A stretch of DNA of 23,346 bases, from positions 1 to 23,346 of IMG/VR virus record IMGVR_UViG_3300032236_000122; one strand, written 5' to 3'. Positions 4,444 to 23,260 of the stretch are shown here, piece by piece; position 1 is the stretch's first letter, and each line of letters begins with the position of its first letter. The DNA is from a virus. Both the position numbers and the translations under genes were made by a program. The notes under the pieces are model-generated. The model had not been told where the DNA came from. It did no database searches and was given only the letters and a program-made list of their open reading frames with translations.

Positions 4444-4956
4444 TTATGAGTTGTTGATGCCGTAGAGATAGAAAGTGGAATTGGCTGCGAAAGCGAAGGA
4501 GGAAGTGGGTTGAACACCAACTGAAGTGATTGCCGAAGTTCCTGACCATAAAACAGCCGAAAGCATAATATCAGCGCCCGTAGCATTTTGCTCATTTACG
4601 CCATCGATCGCGATTGGCTTATTGTTTGTAGAAGTATAGTTGGGAATATAGAACTCATTGCTAGAAAATGTGCTACCAGTCCAACCCGATGGAACAGATG
4701 GCGTCAGCAAGCCACCAGCAGCGATGGTTCCGCTTGCTGCGGAGCCAGTTCCGGGGCCATAAAGATATCTGCCCGCAATGTTAGCTGTGGAGCTATTGAT
4801 GGTGAGTGTCAACCATTCGATCTGAGCAGTGAATCGAGTGGAGCAGACAAGTTTGAGGTCTGTGTAAGTTTGTGGAATAGCGGTGAAATTTATAGATGTT
4901 TCCACACCTGTTGCGACAATCGGAGAACCGATCAAGACCATCGTTGGATTAGCCAT
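4444..4956 (-). CDS. Adhesin-like structural protein, tandem copy 3
   Basis: A 170-residue paralog: SINFTAIPQTYTDLKLVCS at the start, RYLYGPGTGSAASG, EFYIPNYTSTNNKPIAI, then TSAITSVGVQPTSSFAFAANSTFYLYGINNS at the end. Its start lies next to the TGA of copy 2, with AAAGGCGG as a possible ribosome-binding stretch. Function inferred as for the other copies. Confidence 0.7.
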   Translation of the reverse strand: MANPTMVLIGSPIVATGVETSINFTAIPQTYTDLKLVCSTRFTAQIEWLTLTINSSTANIAGRYLYGPGTGSAASGTIAAGGLLTPSVPSGWTGSTFSSNEFYIPNYTSTNNKPIAIDGVNEQNATGADIMLSAVLWSGTSAITSVGVQPTSSFAFAANSTFYLYGINNS

Positions 4957-4957
4957 A

Positions 4958-5467
4958 TCACGCCGCCTTTATTCCATAGAGAGTGAAGGTTGAGCCAGTA
5001 TTGAAATTCGCTCCATTTGTGGCAAAGGTGATGGTGGTGATGGCGCCAGTGCCTCTCCATTGTCCACAATGACTTCCCACTTCAGCACCAGAAAATGAAC
5101 CTCGTGAAATGTAAGTTTTGTAAGAGGTGGAATTGGATATGTTGAAAATTTCAACTGTCAAAACTGCATAGTTTCCCGATGCTCCAATATATCCACAATA
5201 TCCAACAGTGGTGTTGGCATTTCTTCCAGAGGCGGCAGTTGTGCCATCTCCATAGATATATGTATCAGAATAATTAGAAGCAGAATCTGAATTGAATCTC
5301 AATGATGTCTGAGCGCCAGCCGAAGGAGTGCCACTGTAAACTAATTTGAGGTCTGTATATCCAGAGAAAGAGCTGAAAGAAACGCTAGTCGATCCAGTGG
5401 TCAAAGTCGTTGACTGGATAGGAATATAGGTCTGTCCTGCATTGGCTGTGGAAGTAGTCACGCCCAT
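4958..5467 (-). CDS. Adhesin-like structural protein, tandem copy 2
   Basis: A 169-residue paralog of its neighbours: SVSFSSFSGYTDLKLVYSG at the start, YIYGDGTTAASG in the middle, VEIFNISNSTSYKTY, and TGAITTITFA…TGSTFTLYGIKAA at the end. Unlike copies 1 and 3 it lacks the IP before the YTDLKL motif. It begins one base after the TAA of copy 1. The middle third differs most, as expected for a part that contacts a variable receptor. Confidence 0.7.
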   Translation of the reverse strand: MGVTTSTANAGQTYIPIQSTTLTTGSTSVSFSSFSGYTDLKLVYSGTPSAGAQTSLRFNSDSASNYSDTYIYGDGTTAASGRNANTTVGYCGYIGASGNYAVLTVEIFNISNSTSYKTYISRGSFSGAEVGSHCGQWRGTGAITTITFATNGANFNTGSTFTLYGIKAA

Positions 5468-5468
5468 G

Positions 5469-6056
5469 TTATTTCACCCCATATAGTGCAAATGTTGAGT
5501 ATTGAGAAAATCCAGCAGAGGATTGCGGAGTAAGATCAATTTGGGTGACTGCGCTTGTTGACATAAAGAGTCCAGAACTCAAAGCGATAACACCGCTTCC
5601 ATTTCTATCATTTCCACCGATTGCGCGTGTTGTTTTATATTTATTTGTATTCGCATAATCGACAATGTCCAAGACAAATGATCCGAATGTATTTGTTGCG
5701 GTATTGGGTGGAAATTCGTTGAGATACATAGAAGAAGCACTTTGACCATTACCTGCATTTACTCCAGCGGTAGAACCGTTGCCGTAGAAGTAATGGCTAG
5801 AATATGAAGTTCCACCTACGCCGTTGAGGGTATAGTTGATATAGCAAGTATTAGTTGTATTAGATTGCAAAGTTGCTCGCACCTGCAAATGTGTGTAAGT
5901 GCTTGGAATACCTGTGAAACTGATTGAAGAAACGCCAGAAGCATCGACAGTCGCCGTTGAGATGGCATAGTAATTGCCCGGCAATTTTTTTACTCCAGCC
6001 AGTTCTCCATACCCGCGAGCCGAAAGCCCCGCTAACGATCCCAGAATTGGTGACAT
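5469..6056 (-). CDS. Adhesin-like structural protein, tandem copy 1
   Basis: A 195-residue beta-rich protein. After a unique N-terminus (SPILGSLAGLSARGYGELAGV) come SSISFTGIPSTYTHLQV, a YFYGNGS turn, FVLDIVDYANTNKYKT and the final SAVTQIDL…SQYSTFALYGVK. The same frame (IPxTYTxLxL near the start, AITxIxL…STFxLYGIK at the end) recurs in the two genes downstream. Position after the fibre gene suggests a receptor-binding or tail-tip part. GGGGAG precedes the ATG. No catalytic motif seen. Confidence 0.7.
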   Translation of the reverse strand: MSPILGSLAGLSARGYGELAGVKKLPGNYYAISTATVDASGVSSISFTGIPSTYTHLQVRATLQSNTTNTCYINYTLNGVGGTSYSSHYFYGNGSTAGVNAGNGQSASSMYLNEFPPNTATNTFGSFVLDIVDYANTNKYKTTRAIGGNDRNGSGVIALSSGLFMSTSAVTQIDLTPQSSAGFSQYSTFALYGVK

Positions 6057-11314: not shown

Positions 11315-11722
11315 TTACGAAGTAGCTTTGCTGATTGCGCCCGATACTGGCCAAGTCACGCTGGCGGTGGCTAACTGTCCAATGCCGCCCTTCAAGGGAG
11401 TCCAATCGGAGACAAGCGCGGAGACGCTATATTGCGGATTCGTTGTGGTTGTAGTTCCGGCAACTGGCTTGACCACGATTGTGGTGGTTGTGCCGAGAAG
11501 CGGATAGATGGTGGCTTCAACCGATGAACCAGCGAAATCTTGCATGAAGTCAAGAGTGATCTGGTTATCTGCTAGACCAGCAACGCGGGTCTTGGCAGTT
11601 GAGCCGAATGTTGTGGTTTCCACGATGTCATACTTGGTTTCAAGTGTGATGTTGCTGATGTGATCAGAGAGATCCACGCCACCGATGGTGATTGAGGGGT
11701 TAGTGAGAACGACTTTTGCCAT
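11315..11722 (-). CDS. Tail tube protein, copy 2 (tandem paralog)
   Basis: A 135-residue paralog of the preceding gene, alignable from end to end: VDLSDHISNITLETKYDIVETTTFG, KTRVAGLADNQITLDFMQDF, VEATIYPLLGTTTTIVVKP and SDWTPLKGGIGQLATASVTW. Differences cluster in surface-like loops and in the segment after VVxP. The two genes share a perfect 50-bp repeat. Copy 2 may form a mixed tube with copy 1, cap or initiate the tube, or be a spare; sequence cannot decide. Confidence 0.8.
   Translation of the reverse strand: MAKVVLTNPSITIGGVDLSDHISNITLETKYDIVETTTFGSTAKTRVAGLADNQITLDFMQDFAGSSVEATIYPLLGTTTTIVVKPVAGTTTTTNPQYSVSALVSDWTPLKGGIGQLATASVTWPVSGAISKATS
11363..11412. repeat. 50-bp perfect direct repeat, unit A
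   Basis: Identical over 50 bases to 11774-11823. It codes in both tail-tube genes for SDWTPLKGGIGQLATA. Flanking DNA of the two genes has diverged more, so this block looks recently homogenised by recombination or under very strong constraint. Confidence 0.95.
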
Positions 11723-11725
11723 GAG

Positions 11726-12139
11726 TTATGCGCTCGCTTTCGTGATAGCCCCTGTGATTGGCCATGATACCGAGGCGGTGGCTAACTGTCCAATGCCGCC
11801 CTTCAAGGGAGTCCAATCGGAGATCAACGCGGTGAAGGTATATGTCGGATTCGTTGCTGAGACCGCTGCGGAAGTTGGTTGAACCACGATGGTGGTTGTC
11901 TGTCCGAGCAGTGGGTAGATTGTCGCTTCAACATTTGCTGATGCGAAATCTTGATGGAAGTCGATGCTGACTTGGTTATCTACCAGTCCAGCAACGCGAG
12001 TCTTGGCAGCGCCAGAAGCTCCGAATGCTGTGGTTTCAACGATGTCATCTTTGCTTTCGATGGTGATGCTTGAGATGTGATCGCTCAGAATAACTGAGTT
12101 GATCGTCACCTTGGCATCGGTGAGAACGATTTTGCTCAT
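11726..12139 (-). CDS. Tail tube protein, copy 1
   Basis: A 137-residue beta-rich protein with the pattern of siphovirus major tail proteins: VILSDHISSITIESKDDIVETTAFG near the start (the loop and strands used for ring stacking), then TRVAGLVDNQVSIDFHQDF, VEATIYPLLGQTTTIVVQP and the C-terminal ISDWTPLKGGIGQLATASVSWPITG. Such proteins polymerise into hexameric rings around the tape measure. It is followed within 3 nt by a second copy of the same family. Confidence 0.82.
   Translation of the reverse strand: MSKIVLTDAKVTINSVILSDHISSITIESKDDIVETTAFGASGAAKTRVAGLVDNQVSIDFHQDFASANVEATIYPLLGQTTTIVVQPTSAAVSATNPTYTFTALISDWTPLKGGIGQLATASVSWPITGAITKASA
11774..11823. repeat. 50-bp perfect direct repeat, unit B
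   Basis: Partner of 11363-11412, offset 411 bases, in the first tail-tube gene. Recombination between the two units would delete one tail-tube copy or fuse the two. Confidence 0.95.
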
Positions 12140-14707: not shown

Positions 14708-16057
14708 TTAGTATCCTGAAGGAGCGATTGTGCCTGTGCCTGAGATTGCAGACACTGACTTGTTGAAGCGGTGAGCGAGAGCAGCGTATCCATAGACTTG
14801 GAAGCGAACTGTGAGGTTGCTTGACAAGACATCTGGGAGAACGCGTGTCTTCACGCCAGACTCGAAGAGGTATGAGTCTGAGAACTTACCGACAAGAATT
14901 GGGCTTTGGTTTGTGCCAGCGCCGTAGTTCTTTGGAAGTGTTGCATCGATGAAGACTGGAACACCTTGGATTGTACCAACGAGGCCAGCAGGTGCGCCCG
15001 GATTGGTGACAGTTCCAGCGGAGTTGAACGCCTGTGATGCGCCTGTTACTGGCACAACGAGTGGGCGGTTTGATCCATCCACCTGTGATGCGAACCAGTA
15101 CCACATTGAAGGGTGCATGACGATTGCATCTGCTTGCTTGTAACGGTTTGTGACAACCTTTGAGATCGCCTTAGCGATTGCGATTGCACCATTTACAGCA
15201 GTTGGAGTTGTTTCAGTCCATGTTGTTGGGATGCCGTTGGTTGTATCAGCACCGAGGGTGATGAGACCCTTGAGTGTTCCTGATGTTCCATCGCCAGCGC
15301 CGACAACTGCGGTGTTGAGCTGCAATGCGTAGTCAGCCATGAGATCACCGAAGACTAGACGATCGAGACCGCCAGCCAAAGGAGACTGTTCTACAAGCTG
15401 AATCGATACATTCTCATAGCCGGAGATTGTGCGAACTGGTGCTGTGACTGTTGAAGAAACCATGTCACGAGTTGTAGTTGCAGCGTTATCAGCAGACTGG
15501 AATGCAGCGAGTGTGCCTGTGGTGATCTGTGGAATGTTGATTGAGTCAGTACCAGCAGGGAGAGCCATGTTGGTAACGAGATCAGCAGTCACACGAGCAG
15601 CACGAGCGAATTCGGCATACTCATTTATTAGGTAAATTGGCGGAACAAAATCGCCGCCGGCGCCGTCAGTGCGGGAAACATCGCGTGTTTCGATCGCAAC
15701 TTCCTGCTGGTGACGATAGAGGCGCTCCCATGAGGAACGATCATTGCGAAGCTGTGCGCCAATCATGTCGCGAACGAATGAGTTCTCGCCATTCTTGTCG
15801 TAGGTCATTGACTCGCGAGTAACTACTGCGCCGCCGAAGACCTTTGTGCCAGATTCCTTGCGAGATTCTGCGATTGCTGCTGTGCGGGCTTCTACCTTTT
15901 CAGCAGTTGCGATGCGCTCATCAAGTGCAGAAATTTCTTCCTGCTTTGCTGATGCTGCATCTAGAGCTTCTGCGCTGACATCTTCTGCTGCGAGAGTTGA
16001 TTCAACCTCGGCAACAAGACCATCGCGCTGCTCCTTGAGCTTTGATGCTAGAGACAT
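14708..16057 (-). CDS. Major capsid protein, HK97 fold
   Basis: A 449-residue phage capsid protein of the HK97 type, which builds the icosahedral shell. Residues 1 to about 95 are helical and charged (LKEQRDGLVAEVES…EEISALDERIATAEKVEA), like the delta domain that acts as built-in scaffold and is removed by the prohead protease. The shell part follows, starting around GGDFVPPIYLINEY, with the family's LPAGTDSINIPQ, ISGYENVSIQLVEQSP and PSMWYWFASQVDG stretches. AAAGGG precedes the ATG. The gene follows the protease gene by 57 nt and is followed by a long hairpin, consistent with its need for high expression. Confidence 0.95.
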   Translation of the reverse strand: MSLASKLKEQRDGLVAEVESTLAAEDVSAEALDAASAKQEEISALDERIATAEKVEARTAAIAESRKESGTKVFGGAVVTRESMTYDKNGENSFVRDMIGAQLRNDRSSWERLYRHQQEVAIETRDVSRTDGAGGDFVPPIYLINEYAEFARAARVTADLVTNMALPAGTDSINIPQITTGTLAAFQSADNAATTTRDMVSSTVTAPVRTISGYENVSIQLVEQSPLAGGLDRLVFGDLMADYALQLNTAVVGAGDGTSGTLKGLITLGADTTNGIPTTWTETTPTAVNGAIAIAKAISKVVTNRYKQADAIVMHPSMWYWFASQVDGSNRPLVVPVTGASQAFNSAGTVTNPGAPAGLVGTIQGVPVFIDATLPKNYGAGTNQSPILVGKFSDSYLFESGVKTRVLPDVLSSNLTVRFQVYGYAALAHRFNKSVSAISGTGTIAPSGY

Positions 16058-16114: not shown

Positions 16115-18319
16115 TTACGCCTTGACCTTGCGAGTCAAGGAATACTGCTTGACCTTGAGTTTCAACTTGCGCTTGGCAAGTTCAAGATCGGCTTCTTCTG
16201 CTGAACGCATTCCCACTGATGTGGAATCGTAAGCAGGAAGGGTGACAACTGAGACTTCATAGAGGCGCTCAATGTCTTGGATAGTGCGAAGACCAGCATC
16301 GCGAGTCTGTCCATCAGGAGAGACTGTGAAGGCGAAGCTCATCTTGTCCATATCGCCTCGGCGAAGTGCTGAGGAAAGTTCCTGAGCCTTTGGATTGGCT
16401 GGATCGAGTGTGGCTTCCATATAGAGACCAGTCTTGTCCTGACGGAGTTGAAGGGTTCCTGATTGTGTGGAAGCAAGTGGGATGCCTTCCATGTCGTGAT
16501 TGACAAGAAGGAAGACTGGATCGTTGGAAGCAAGTGCGCGAGTGAAAGCGCCGGGGGCGATTACTTCGCGGAAGTTCAAGCCAGTGGCTTCTGAGTTGAA
16601 GGTTGCAGCGTAGCCGCCGATCTTCAATGAGCCGTCATCGGTTGCGACTGCGCGAACTTCGGCAGTCATGGTGATGCGTTCTGCTCCTGCCATAGCCTTG
16701 CGAGCTTCGATCATAGATGAATCCTCCGAGCGGGGTGCGGGTAGAGCAGTGATCACTGTGAGAATATCACTGCGATGGACTGAGACGACATCGGTTGGAA
16801 TCCAACCATTCCCCTGCTCTTTGTAGATACGAACCGCGAAGGCTGGCTGATCTGGTGTGGTCTCCAAGGTGTAACCCTCAGAAGACTTTGCCTGACCCTT
16901 GGTCACTACCTTTTCGACCTTGCCCTTGGCGCGACCATTGCTAGTTGGCCATGAGACGAATGAGCCTTCTCCGATACGAGCTGCCGAAGCGCGCTCCTCG
17001 AATGGAGCCTTGATCGAATCATCGTTGAACTGCTTGGCGAGGCGGTCATAGTAAGCAGCGACCTTGCTCTTGATTTCAGCAACATCTGAGTCTGGGATAT
17101 TGACTCCACCGCGAGCGCCGTTCAAGACACCAGCGACTGCGAAGATGGCCTTGGGAACTGCTACGAGTGAGCCGTCAATAACATCAGCGAACTGCAACTT
17201 GTAAGAACCGAGAAGATCCTTCTTGGTCTCATCAACATAGAAGAACGCCTTGGCGTACTTGTCGAAGTCGATCTTGTCGCCTCCAGCATATTCCTGAACG
17301 CGCTTGTCGGCTGCTGCTGCATCCCAAGCTGTATCGCGTGGGGCGATAGGAAGATCAGAAGCGCCGATTGCTGAGCGGCTGATAGGCATGGGAGCAAGAC
17401 CTTGCTCTGCCAACATATCATCGACCTGATCGTATGGTTGATCATCGGCATCTTCGCCCTGATCATCAAGAGCATCAACTGAAGGCTGTGTGACTTCCTG
17501 ACCGAGTGAAGCGGTCAACTGCCACTTCCAGAACTGGTGCTGGTCAATACGACCTGCGAGGAAGTTAGCGACTCCCTGCTGTGAGTAAGCAGTAGCGCAA
17601 TCGAAAGCATCAGACAACTCATCGAGGATGGTGTCGTTGGCTGCGAGAAGGTCAGTGGCAAGTGCGATCGGATCTTGCAAGATGACTGGGGCATCTTCGA
17701 TGGAACGAAGTGCCAAGAATGATGGAAGTGTAAATGGAGCGACTGAGCCTAGTTTGCGAAGGTTCTCAGCGATAGGGTCGATTGACTCATAGACATCCTC
17801 ATAGATTTTGAGGAAGAGCTTGTGATATTCGCTGAAGTCAGCACCCTTCACATTCCAGTGAGCGCCATGAGCGCGGAAGTAGAAGCTCACAACATCTGCG
17901 AGAAGTTCAGTCAGTTCCTCGTTTAGATCAGGAACTTGATTCATGTCAGCCATGTCACCCTCCTCGGATGCCATCAGGGAAAGCGCTCGAGCGCTTTTCG
18001 TGATTTGATTTCTGATTTTCGTTGACCAATCAAAGCCAGCATCGCCACCCCAAGCAGACCACGCCACTCTTCCGGCAGATGGGAATCCATCTTCACCAGA
18101 GTTGAAACCTTCTGCCTTCTTATCGACCTCATGTCGCTTGAAGAAGGAGAACATTCGCAAGATAGTTTCGGCACTTACTGGATGTCCAGCAGCCAAGTCG
18201 CTCGCTCTTTTCTTGCCCACTGCTGTAAAGCCAGAACCAGCATGACCATCAGCAATCCAACCCAAAGCCTTTTTCGCTTCATCTTGGACTCCCTGTGGAA
18301 CTCGGAATGTTTCGGCCAT
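16115..18319 (-). CDS. Multidomain capsid protease: phage domain + Dps-like + Tudor-like + HK97 prohead protease
   Basis: One unbroken frame of 734 residues, about 3.5 times a normal HK97 prohead protease. Domains in order: (a) 1-115, a conserved phage domain with AAGHPVSAETILRM, HEVDKKAEG and AWSAWGGDAG, function unknown; (b) 126-275, a Dps/ferritin-like four-helix domain with HWNVKG (His154), His166, Asp181 and Glu185 in exact Dps spacing, but Leu170 where Dps has Asp; (c) 280-303, a very acidic linker; (d) 318-440, a second conserved phage domain (SDLPIAPRDTAWD, FADVIDGSLVAVPKAIF); (e) 449-525, an HVA1/Tudor-like beta domain (VSWPTSNGRAKGKV, GWIPTDVV); (f) 548-705, the HK97 prohead protease with NHD (His608) and MSFAF (Ser661). 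It lies between portal and major capsid genes, where the protease belongs. Two internal start sites (M123 and M536) have strong ribosome-binding sites. Domain f and the Dps-like call are firm; the role of the fusion is inferred. Confidence 0.93.
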   Translation of the reverse strand: MAETFRVPQGVQDEAKKALGWIADGHAGSGFTAVGKKRASDLAAGHPVSAETILRMFSFFKRHEVDKKAEGFNSGEDGFPSAGRVAWSAWGGDAGFDWSTKIRNQITKSARALSLMASEEGDMADMNQVPDLNEELTELLADVVSFYFRAHGAHWNVKGADFSEYHKLFLKIYEDVYESIDPIAENLRKLGSVAPFTLPSFLALRSIEDAPVILQDPIALATDLLAANDTILDELSDAFDCATAYSQQGVANFLAGRIDQHQFWKWQLTASLGQEVTQPSVDALDDQGEDADDQPYDQVDDMLAEQGLAPMPISRSAIGASDLPIAPRDTAWDAAAADKRVQEYAGGDKIDFDKYAKAFFYVDETKKDLLGSYKLQFADVIDGSLVAVPKAIFAVAGVLNGARGGVNIPDSDVAEIKSKVAAYYDRLAKQFNDDSIKAPFEERASAARIGEGSFVSWPTSNGRAKGKVEKVVTKGQAKSSEGYTLETTPDQPAFAVRIYKEQGNGWIPTDVVSVHRSDILTVITALPAPRSEDSSMIEARKAMAGAERITMTAEVRAVATDDGSLKIGGYAATFNSEATGLNFREVIAPGAFTRALASNDPVFLLVNHDMEGIPLASTQSGTLQLRQDKTGLYMEATLDPANPKAQELSSALRRGDMDKMSFAFTVSPDGQTRDAGLRTIQDIERLYEVSVVTLPAYDSTSVGMRSAEEADLELAKRKLKLKVKQYSLTRKVKA
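16712..16727 (-). promoter_or_regulatory. Internal ribosome binding site and ATG before the prohead protease domain
   Basis: GGAGG at 16723-16727 lies 8 nt before an in-frame ATG (codon 536; first base 16714). Translation from here would give a 199-residue protein, the usual size of a free-standing HK97-type prohead protease, beginning just before the conserved MTAEVRAV strand. Confidence 0.6.
17951..17964 (-). promoter_or_regulatory. Internal ribosome binding site and ATG before the Dps-like domain
   Basis: AGGAGG at 17959-17964 lies 5 nt before an in-frame ATG (codon 123 of the 734-residue frame; first base 17953), three residues before a second Met and just ahead of the Dps-like domain. 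It is stronger than the site at the gene's own start. If used it would give a 612-residue product that begins at a domain boundary. Confidence 0.55.
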
Positions 18320-19548
18320 TATTCAAGAACCCCCATGACTGGTGCTGATGGATCTTTGTCAACGCCGAGTGCAGGAGTATCTCCACCCGCCAAAGCAGTT
18401 CCTTGGAACGCCTGATGGAAGACATCGCCGCCATCATAAGGTTCCATGCCTTCAATGGCACGAACTTCATTCGGAGTGCGAGCGCCCATCTGGACATTGA
18501 TCTTGTTGACATTGGCGCGAGTAATCGCATCAACGCGAAGAAGGGTGGAAGTATCAAAGGCAACATCGTCACCCTCGTCAAGAATGTTGGAAAGCGCGAT
18601 TTCAATTCGGCGAATCCAAGGTGCGATGGTGTGAGTCAAGAAGTTGAGTGATGCTTGCTCGACATTCTGATAAGTCTGATTATCGCCCATAGCGCCGATC
18701 AAGTGATCTGGGATGCGGAAGATGCGAGCGATGTCGCGAATCAACTGCTCGCGGGTAGCGATCATCTCTGCATCGGCAGCAGATGTGGTGATTGGTCGGA
18801 ACTTCAAGCCATCGGAGAGAACTGCTGGCTTGCGGTGGCGGCGATGGGTTGCTTCCCATGTCGCCTGAATAACGCGAGCCTGTTCCACGTTGAGCTTCTG
18901 ATCAGTCTCAAGGATGCCGGAAGGCGTTCCACCCTCGCCATAGAACTGCGCCAAGTGGCGATCCATAGCGATGGAAAGACCGATGAGGTTGCGAGCCTGA
19001 TTGAGCGGGCTGATGCCCACTAACGATTGAGGCGGGGTGAACCAGCGAAGATGAAGAACATCCTCACGATTCATCTCGTTGCCGAGGTGAAGGTATCGGC
19101 GACCAGTCATGTCTCCCGTTGGGAGAACCTGCATCTGGTAAGGGTGAAGTGGCACGAGGCCAATCATGTTTCCATTGCGATCGCGATCGATCTTGACATA
19201 GGCATTGCCATGCAAAGCCATTGAAGCCACGATCTGATGGATCAATTCATAAGTGTTTGACTCTGGATCTGGATCGGCGAGAACATCAGGAAGCGGGCGC
19301 ATAACGCGCTGGCCACCCTTGCCGATGGTGTAGCAGCGAAGAGGCATTGAGGCGACTGAATCGGCGAGAAGGGAAACCGCGCCGAGTACGGATGAGACAC
19401 CAAGAGCAGTCCACTCATCGATGCGCTCGCCAGCAGCAGAGGTCATCGAAGTCTGACCATAGAGCTGGCTCAGAGGTGAGACATAGTTGTTGAATTGAGG
19501 GTAGCGACCTACTGTGAAGGATTGGATTCCGCGACTGAAGATGCTCAC
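18319..19548 (-). CDS. HK97-family portal protein
   Basis: A 409-residue phage portal, the dodecameric ring at the capsid vertex through which DNA is packaged. Family features include the early ALGVSSVLGAVSLLADSVAS stretch, the MALHGNAYVKIDRD strand, EDVLHLRWFTP, and the RLIRIP-type stretch ARIFRIPDHLIG followed by TYQNVEQASLNFL. Length is normal for the family. The start is GTG at 19548 with GGGAGG 6 nt upstream. Its TAA overlaps the next ATG by one base (TAATG), coupling it to the protease polyprotein. Confidence 0.95.
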   Translation of the reverse strand: MSIFSRGIQSFTVGRYPQFNNYVSPLSQLYGQTSMTSAAGERIDEWTALGVSSVLGAVSLLADSVASMPLRCYTIGKGGQRVMRPLPDVLADPDPESNTYELIHQIVASMALHGNAYVKIDRDRNGNMIGLVPLHPYQMQVLPTGDMTGRRYLHLGNEMNREDVLHLRWFTPPQSLVGISPLNQARNLIGLSIAMDRHLAQFYGEGGTPSGILETDQKLNVEQARVIQATWEATHRRHRKPAVLSDGLKFRPITTSAADAEMIATREQLIRDIARIFRIPDHLIGAMGDNQTYQNVEQASLNFLTHTIAPWIRRIEIALSNILDEGDDVAFDTSTLLRVDAITRANVNKINVQMGARTPNEVRAIEGMEPYDGGDVFHQAFQGTALAGGDTPALGVDKDPSAPVMGVLE

Positions 19549-22723: not shown

Positions 22724-23260
22724 TTACTTCTTCGCTTGGTGCATCCACACGAATGGTGCTGATGTGAACGCATCGCATGATGCAGCAATCTTCAGTGCTT
22801 GCTCATGTGAAGCACCGGCATGGAGAGCGCCGAGTGCATAAGGTGAACCACTGCCGACTCCATAATATCCAGAGGAGTCAAGTGCTACTGAGAAGTCATC
22901 TGCTATCTCAAAGACATGACCAGCAACAGCGATCAGGAATGAGAAGCGAGTCTCATCACTATCATCAACATCGATCTTGTAGTCGTTATCCTTGAAGCAT
23001 CGCTTGAGTGATGGAACTACTTTGGCAATCATGAAGTGATAAAGGTCTTTGCGATCTGATGCAGTTGGTGTTGGTGGTTGCCAGATATGTTGTGCGATGT
23101 CGCATGGTGCGCATTCACCAGATCCAGCAATAATGAATTGACCTCGCTCTGTAATCTTCACCATTCGATGATCGTGATATATCTTGCCACCTGATGTGAC
23201 TTGAGAATCTGCACCGAATGTCACGCCATCTGACTGTTGAACAGCAATGATCGTGGTCAT
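22724..23260 (-). CDS. HslV/proteasome-beta-like Ntn-hydrolase peptidase
   Basis: Predicted threonine peptidase of the Ntn-hydrolase fold, 178 residues, close to the usual length of bacterial HslV (about 175). It starts MTTIIAV, so removal of Met exposes Thr1. Counting from that Thr, GADSQVT places Asp at position 17, the conserved catalytic Asp, and the AG pair falls at 44-45, as in HslV. The C-terminal YGVGSGSPYALGA stretch matches the HslV GSGGxYAxAA helix. The expected Lys33 is Val here, with Lys34 and Arg31 beside it, so the basic residue is shifted or replaced. No unfoldase partner (HslU) is encoded nearby. The gene lies 3 nt upstream of an HNH gene and starts the packaging cluster. Family membership is well supported; proteolytic activity and its target (host protein, procapsid component, or none) are not. 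Confidence 0.82.
   Translation of the reverse strand: MTTIIAVQQSDGVTFGADSQVTSGGKIYHDHRMVKITERGQFIIAGSGECAPCDIAQHIWQPPTPTASDRKDLYHFMIAKVVPSLKRCFKDNDYKIDVDDSDETRFSFLIAVAGHVFEIADDFSVALDSSGYYGVGSGSPYALGALHAGASHEQALKIAASCDAFTSAPFVWMHQAKK

Follow-up and report, generated by a model that had tools for sequence, protein, structure and literature searches.

A ferroxidase-type Dps domain built into the S78 prohead protease of uncultured HK97-type phages, with candidate internal translation starts

The minus strand of a 23,346-nucleotide stretch of viral DNA (positions 1 to 23,346 of the IMG/VR record IMGVR_UViG_3300032236_000122; hereafter the window) carries at positions 16115-18319 an open reading frame (ORF) of 734 codons, whose 734-amino acid product joins a Dps-type, ferritin-like domain to the S78 prohead protease of an HK97-type phage. 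A preliminary description, made from the nucleotide letters, had reported that an N-terminal phage domain, a Dps-like domain, a second phage domain, a Tudor-like domain and an HK97 prohead protease are joined in one frame; segment-wise searches of Pfam and PHROG recover this order, the coordinates and the four ligand residues named at that time are correct, and the strand, which was not given, is minus. Judged from sequence comparison and structural modeling, the Dps domain is genuine and possesses intact di-iron ligands. Although Dps proteins and S78 proteases are both familiar, the combination of the two is a new domain architecture, which suggests that the phages put an anti-oxidant protein into their new particles or release it around them.

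The Dps domain comprises residues 129-274 (17498-17935; this and all other features of the ORF lie on the minus strand). Pfam assigns residues 134-273 to Ferritin (PF00210; E-value 1.2e-13; 51.6 bits, cut-off 24.5), and residues 127-273 match phrog_3636, a PHROG family of Dps-type DNA-binding proteins. Among proteins of solved structure, the best sequence match is the Pseudomonas aeruginosa Dps protein PA0962 (8ff9; E-value 2.3e-14), whose residues H37, H49, D64 and E68 are ferroxidase ligands (PMC10002758). In the alignment with 8ff9, these positions are taken, in this order, by His154 (17858-17860), His166 (17822-17824), Asp181 (17777-17779) and Glu185 (17765-17767). Among 89 distinct homologous domains, His166, Asp181 and Trp155, the neighbor of the first ligand histidine, are invariant, while His154 and Glu185 are each kept in 88 and are replaced only in the degenerate-looking domain of locus L153. 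The exact Dps spacing of the ligands that had been noted in the preliminary description is thereby borne out.

An AlphaFold2 model of the Dps segment by itself (mean predicted local distance difference test score, pLDDT, of 87) exhibits four long helices and a short BC helix. When this model was used in a Foldseek search, only Dps proteins were found among the PDB matches listed, with template modeling (TM) scores of 0.80-0.84 by query and 0.84-0.92 by target for the best of them, and of 0.76-0.92 by target over all those listed. The model of the full-length protein has a predicted TM score (pTM) of only 0.30, and the placement of its domains is therefore left uninterpreted; in its PDB search, Dps proteins alone are found among the matches listed, and the N-terminal and middle domains gain no fold match. 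The structure prediction and structure search that had been proposed thus returned a ferritin-like four-helix bundle matched by solved Dps proteins, and phage relatives do keep the domain, so that neither of the two findings named beforehand as fatal to the idea (a non-ferritin fold, or no phage relative retaining the domain) was made.

Of all domains encoded by the ORF, Dps has the lowest ratio of non-synonymous to synonymous substitutions between relatives (dN/dS of 0.087, compared with 0.140 for the middle domain, 0.156 for the protease and 0.279 for the linker that follows Dps), a sign of strong purifying selection. The domain is also strongly acidic (net charge -13, isoelectric point 4.4) and lacks a basic tail, and both properties are found across the fused homologues, in which the net charge ranges from -13 to -18.

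The architecture is widespread. In a Dps-anchored scan of viral contigs, from which the best 80 of 516 stretches encoding relatives were kept, the full order of N-terminal domain, Dps, middle domain, Tudor-like domain and protease was present in 44 Dps ORFs, Dps and protease without other recognized modules in 20, the order lacking only the middle domain in 19 and that lacking only the Tudor-like domain in 7, in addition to smaller classes; these counts cover the Dps ORFs of the retrieved loci, with some contigs represented more than once and a few ORFs truncated. The S78 domain is present in nearly every untruncated Dps ORF of these loci. Dps and S78 are the constant pair, and even the shortest forms (452-490 amino acids) still keep Dps. 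A less biased survey, anchored on the portal gene, covered 80 contigs, two of which end too early; Dps resides within the protease ORF in 71 of the 78 informative contigs and is absent from seven. The survey of related phage contigs advocated in the preliminary description thus shows the fusion to be kept intact by many relatives, and a chimeric contig or assembly artefact is ruled out by the dozens of independent IMG/VR contigs with the same frame.

The phages that bear the fusion form a large uncultured group, found mostly in lake and bog water, and the fusion occurs in none of the isolated phages of INPHARED. A Dps-prohead protease fusion was not found described in the literature searched, which was largely without subscription journals. 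UniProt holds unreviewed entries from uncultured Caudovirales, named 'Prohead protease' or 'DNA-binding protein Dps', whose structure models include the Dps domain; the fusion sequences are therefore already public but apparently undescribed. The single match in genome contigs, a phage fragment of 4.7 kb that is catalogued with a betaproteobacterial metagenome-assembled genome (L159), was considered as a pointer to the host but is distrusted, because the nearest isolate terminase belongs to a phage of the Microbacteriaceae (phiPsal1, 46%). In one related contig (L129:7207-8799), the frame of the major capsid protein is seemingly split into three ORFs, perhaps through inserted or extra sequence or an assembly error.

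Dps has been joined to a head protease in more than one way. In a second lineage (L061, L135-L150), the Dps domain is 40-48% identical, and most members have a different N-terminus and a HAD-type phosphatase ahead of it. In a third lineage (L151, L153), a Dps domain of the same clade is placed after a different protease; that of L151 matches Peptidase_S78_2/XkdF in Pfam, while the truncated protease part of L153 is recognized solely through its likeness to L151. Since L151 joins the same Dps clade to a second protease family, the link between Dps and protease arose in more than one arrangement. In L153 (positions 3-2030), a Zeta-toxin-like kinase (PF06414) follows Dps in one frame, and the ferroxidase His and Glu are changed to Ser and Gln. 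Stand-alone Dps proteins of the same clade are encoded in L152, near head-region genes, and in L156-L158. In a phylogenetic tree with several long outgroup branches, of which only this one grouping is used, the fused and the same-clade stand-alone Dps sequences group together with a support of 100/99, to the exclusion of the Dps sequences of cells and isolated phages that were included.

The relatives that lack Dps (L035, L209, L211, L213, L275-L281) have a small, helical-looking module in its place (SIMAADASIDAAQ...DPIxAQAYYLICAADxALxxVIxALGxxDPDDE). This module of about 65 amino acids (AADASIDAAQ...AQAYYLICAADAAL) recurs in protease ORFs such as those of L276-L281, L035, L209 and L275; among 221 ORFs, duplicates included, it is found in 21 and co-occurs with Dps in none. 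That the content of this slot alternates suggests a cargo system of broader scope.

Within the long frame, two sites are candidate translation starts. A Shine-Dalgarno (SD) sequence AGGAGG (17959-17964) stands 5 nucleotides before Met123 (17951-17953) and pairs with the anti-SD at -12.3 kcal/mol, and a second one, GGAGG (16723-16727; -9.5 kcal/mol), stands 8 nucleotides before Met536. In sequence, TCCGAGGAGGGTGAC-ATG lies directly 5' of Dps and CGGAGGATTCATCT-ATG directly 5' of the protease. The SD before Met123 is the strongest among the 19 start sites of the window that were checked; for comparison, the values for the ORF's own start and for the capsid gene are -9.1 and -5.0 kcal/mol. Family-wide, an SD of -6 kcal/mol or lower precedes 55% and 45% of the in-frame ATG codons at the Dps and protease boundaries, respectively, versus 6.6% of 1184 others. 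Synonymous diversity reaches its minimum at codons 116-124 (0.13 versus a median of 0.44 in 728 seven-codon windows), and another low lies near codon 532. The internal SD recurs behind different upstream sequence in L021, L046 and L133, and the SD before the Dps slot is retained in the Dps-less relatives L276-L281.

It should be noted that, for most of the individual peptides that have a strong SD, synonymous resampling gave P values of only about 0.04-0.13, so that no one internal SD is decisive; the case for internal starts rests on the recurrence of the site behind unrelated upstream sequence (L021/L046, L133) together with the minimum in synonymous diversity. On these grounds, internal initiation before Dps and before the protease is likely. 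The conserved SD/ATG sites therefore imply nested products with predicted masses of 80, 67 and 22 kDa: the full-length protein, a 612-amino acid form from Met123 that would run from Dps to the protease (66.6 kDa), and a 199-amino acid protease from Met536 (16118-16714; 21.6 kDa), the length of which fits the stand-alone S78 proteases of other phages (mostly 184-227 amino acids). The view of the ORF as the source of one obligatory fusion protein is weakened accordingly, as the conserved internal ribosome-binding sites predict shorter products, among them a protease free of Dps.

We suggest the following course of events. The gene would yield the 80-kDa form, the 67-kDa form beginning at Dps, and the free 22-kDa protease, and the Dps-bearing forms would enter the procapsid via their C-terminal protease domain, as this domain is incorporated along with the capsid protein. 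Inside the procapsid, the Dps domains would pair, a step that we propose because Dps ferroxidase sites are formed between two subunits (PMC10002758), and the paired domains would oxidize Fe(II) with peroxide and thereby limit Fenton chemistry around the DNA and the capsid under assembly. Phage-encoded proteases work in the head maturation of HK97 and T4 (PMC3185693), and maturation proteolysis within the flexible acidic linker would probably free the Dps domains. This explanation, in which an S78 prohead protease with a built-in Dps domain gives nested products, is taken up by the procapsid, oxidizes Fe(II) with peroxide and serves to scavenge iron and counter oxidants, and not to condense DNA, stands in our judgment, when taken as a whole, at an even balance between right and wrong. 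The presence of Dps in heads or virions would follow by analogy with the behavior of HK97-type proteases. A 12-mer of Dps, about 9 nm in width (PMC11202242), would be trapped in the head if it formed there. Only tentatively do we go as far as to say that active Dps is loaded into heads through the protease fusion, with its swappable slot and internal start, and that the trapped assemblies guard the packaged genome against iron and peroxide. Should Dps enter the head, the assembly of abundant freshwater phages would be linked with oxidative-stress chemistry, and the prohead protease would suggest itself as a natural enzyme-loading tag usable for filling phage shells with chosen cargo.

Several observations weigh against this proposal. 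The internal SD is weak or missing in the lineage with the HAD-type phosphatase, and recombination between modules could also lower synonymous diversity at their boundary. Dps is optional, since seven close relatives carry the other small helical module, a situation that would also fit a merely structural slot. Finally, linkage to the capsid is no fixed requirement, because stand-alone Dps proteins of the same clade exist in L152 and L156-L158.

The strongest rivals to uptake into the procapsid are a role of Dps as an anti-oxidant in the cytoplasm and a structural role of the slot. According to the former, the main place of action of Dps would be the infected cell, as for the stand-alone Dps proteins of Lactobacillus and Bacteroides phages; the position among the late head genes would merely provide high late expression from a strong internal site, and processing would free the domain. 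That the strongest ribosome-binding site among those checked precedes Dps accords with this idea, as do the stand-alone members of the clade and the interpretation of phage Dps as a help to the host under oxidative stress (PMC8008677, PMC6669764). However, no stop codon intervenes between Dps and the protease in the fused lineages, and every product begun at Met123 would therefore retain the capsid-directed protease; moreover, Dps is joined to head proteases of two different families, which would be needless for mere expression. We thus consider this explanation possible but doubtful.

Somewhat less probable again is that Dps serves as a multimerizing scaffold that sets the number or spacing of proteases in the procapsid, with metal chemistry being secondary. 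The unrelated helical module in Dps-less relatives, mutually exclusive with Dps in the redundant set of ORFs, is what one would expect of such a slot, and Dps families do assemble as dimers and 12-mers. Pure oligomerization, however, would not call for the two histidines together, and yet the four ferroxidase ligands are intact in 88 of 89 domains and no other part of the ORF is under purifying selection as strong as that on Dps.

Binding or condensation of packaged DNA in the head, as envisioned in the preliminary description, has the family name and the fold in its favor, along with several Lys/Arg residues in the N-terminal domain just before Dps and a guessed affinity of the Tudor-like domain for nucleic acid. 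Against it stand the acidity of the domain across the fused homologues and the missing basic tail, although certain Dps proteins do bind DNA in the absence of one; DNA binding is not universal in the family (PMC10002758). Because the domain is strongly acidic and without a basic tail, detoxification of peroxide and iron is the likelier function, and we regard DNA binding as very improbable. That the fusion is a functionless accident or a decayed remnant, or else an artefact of assembly, might be suspected from the absence of the module in some relatives and in every isolated phage searched; this view is contradicted by dozens of independent contigs, the low dN/dS of Dps and the intact active site, and can be dismissed almost entirely.

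The remaining parts of the ORF and its surroundings are those of a phage head-gene cluster. The N-terminal conserved phage domain (residues 1-108; 17996-18319) matches phrog_2859 at residues 8-103 (E-value 1.5e-35). Dps is followed by the acidic, fast-evolving linker (residues 275-318; 17366-17497; net charge -11; dN/dS 0.28; pLDDT mostly below 50), by the middle conserved phage domain (residues 319-442; 16994-17365), whose sole profile match is a weak one to phrog_2207, and by the Tudor-like domain (residues 449-528; 16736-16975), in which residues 452-496 match Hva1_TUDOR above the curated Pfam cut-off (E-value 2.8e-6); the middle and Tudor-like domains are both dispensable in relatives. In one contig (L059:2125-4593), the Tudor-like and N-terminal domains are instead found at the C-terminus of the portal protein, which marks them as mobile modules of phage head proteins. 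Head-region proteins of L152 (629-9340), L052, L055, L076 and L153 share, at domain junctions, a common motif like 'KYAEGQPRDSHGRFA' or 'GKHDQKSHSGKFA', which may act as a signal for processing or for targeting to the capsid. Peptidase_S78 (PF04586) is matched at residues 553-706 (E-value 3.6e-38; 131.7 bits against a cut-off of 21), and H608 and S661, which we take to be the catalytic His and Ser, are invariant in 37 aligned sequences.

The gene order is terminase, portal, fusion ORF and major capsid protein, with the terminase upstream, so that the protease gene sits between those for portal and capsid, as is typical for S78. The stop codon of the portal gene (18319-19548, minus strand) overlaps the start of the fusion ORF (TAATG), and the gene for the HK97-type major capsid protein (14708-16057, minus strand; PF05065, E-value 4e-19) lies directly downstream of it. 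A long N-terminal extension of the capsid protein is consistent with cleavage by a packed protease. Elsewhere on the minus strand of the window, an HslV/proteasome-like peptidase gene (22724-23260; PF00227, phrog_1040) is located near the terminase end of the fragment, two paralogous tail-tube-like genes adjoin each other (11315-12139), and three similar beta-rich genes, with the ends YLYGI, TLYGIK and ALYGVK, stand side by side (4444-6056); the latter two groups suggest tandem duplications.

With the Dps family (P. aeruginosa PA0962, Listeria Dps, H. pylori NAP), the fused domain shares the four-helix fold with its BC helix, the inter-subunit H-H-D-E ligands at equal spacing and the conserved Trp beside the first His. 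Known Dps proteins, however, are free and 150-200 amino acids long, whereas this one is embedded in a phage head protease of 452-738 amino acids, is more acidic than the cellular bacterial Dps proteins compared, and has no basic tail. Likewise, the protease domain, its conserved His and Ser and its position between portal and major capsid protein are those of ordinary HK97-type prohead proteases, but about 535 extra residues precede it here. The stand-alone Dps proteins of other phages (Lactobacillus LpeD/Iacchus, Aeromonas LAh, 'Gratiaviridae') are encoded by free genes unlinked to head proteases, and those included in the tree fall outside the clade of the fused domains. In Streptomyces phage Gilson (L170), Salmonella phage pSal-SNUABM-01 (L175) and Aeromonas phage LAh_8 (L166), such genes adjoin those for thymidylate synthase ThyX, ribonucleotide reductase or NrdR-like proteins, a context unlike that of the fused Dps.

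Among isolates, the nearest by terminase, Pontimonas phage phiPsal1, has the N-terminal domain in frame with S78 but no Dps. Roseobacter phage CRP-811 combines the N-terminal domain, the Tudor-like domain and S78 in one frame, again without Dps, and has the major capsid protein in that same frame. Nested head genes are familiar from lambda, in which the protease and scaffold genes C and Nu3 share one frame and internal starts give a long and a short head-assembly product; in the locus studied here, the internal starts are predicted, the products would have the C-terminal protease in common, and Dps is borne by the long form.

Functionally, the fusion-Flp encapsulins of Pyrococcus furiosus and Sulfolobus come closest: their HK97-fold shell protein has a ferritin-like domain fused to it, and this domain is thereby internalized (PMC8346489, PMC11202242). 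If Dps enters the head, phages would share with encapsulins the trick of enclosing a ferritin-like enzyme in an HK97-fold shell, achieved via the protease and not via the shell protein; that head-loaded Dps represents the first phage counterpart of ferritin-loaded encapsulins is an idea we entertain with considerable reserve. The likeness to encapsulins drawn in the preliminary description is sound as an analogy. It is an analogy only: here Dps is joined to the maturation protease of a phage, and the locus is not an encapsulin, because genes for a portal and a terminase are present.
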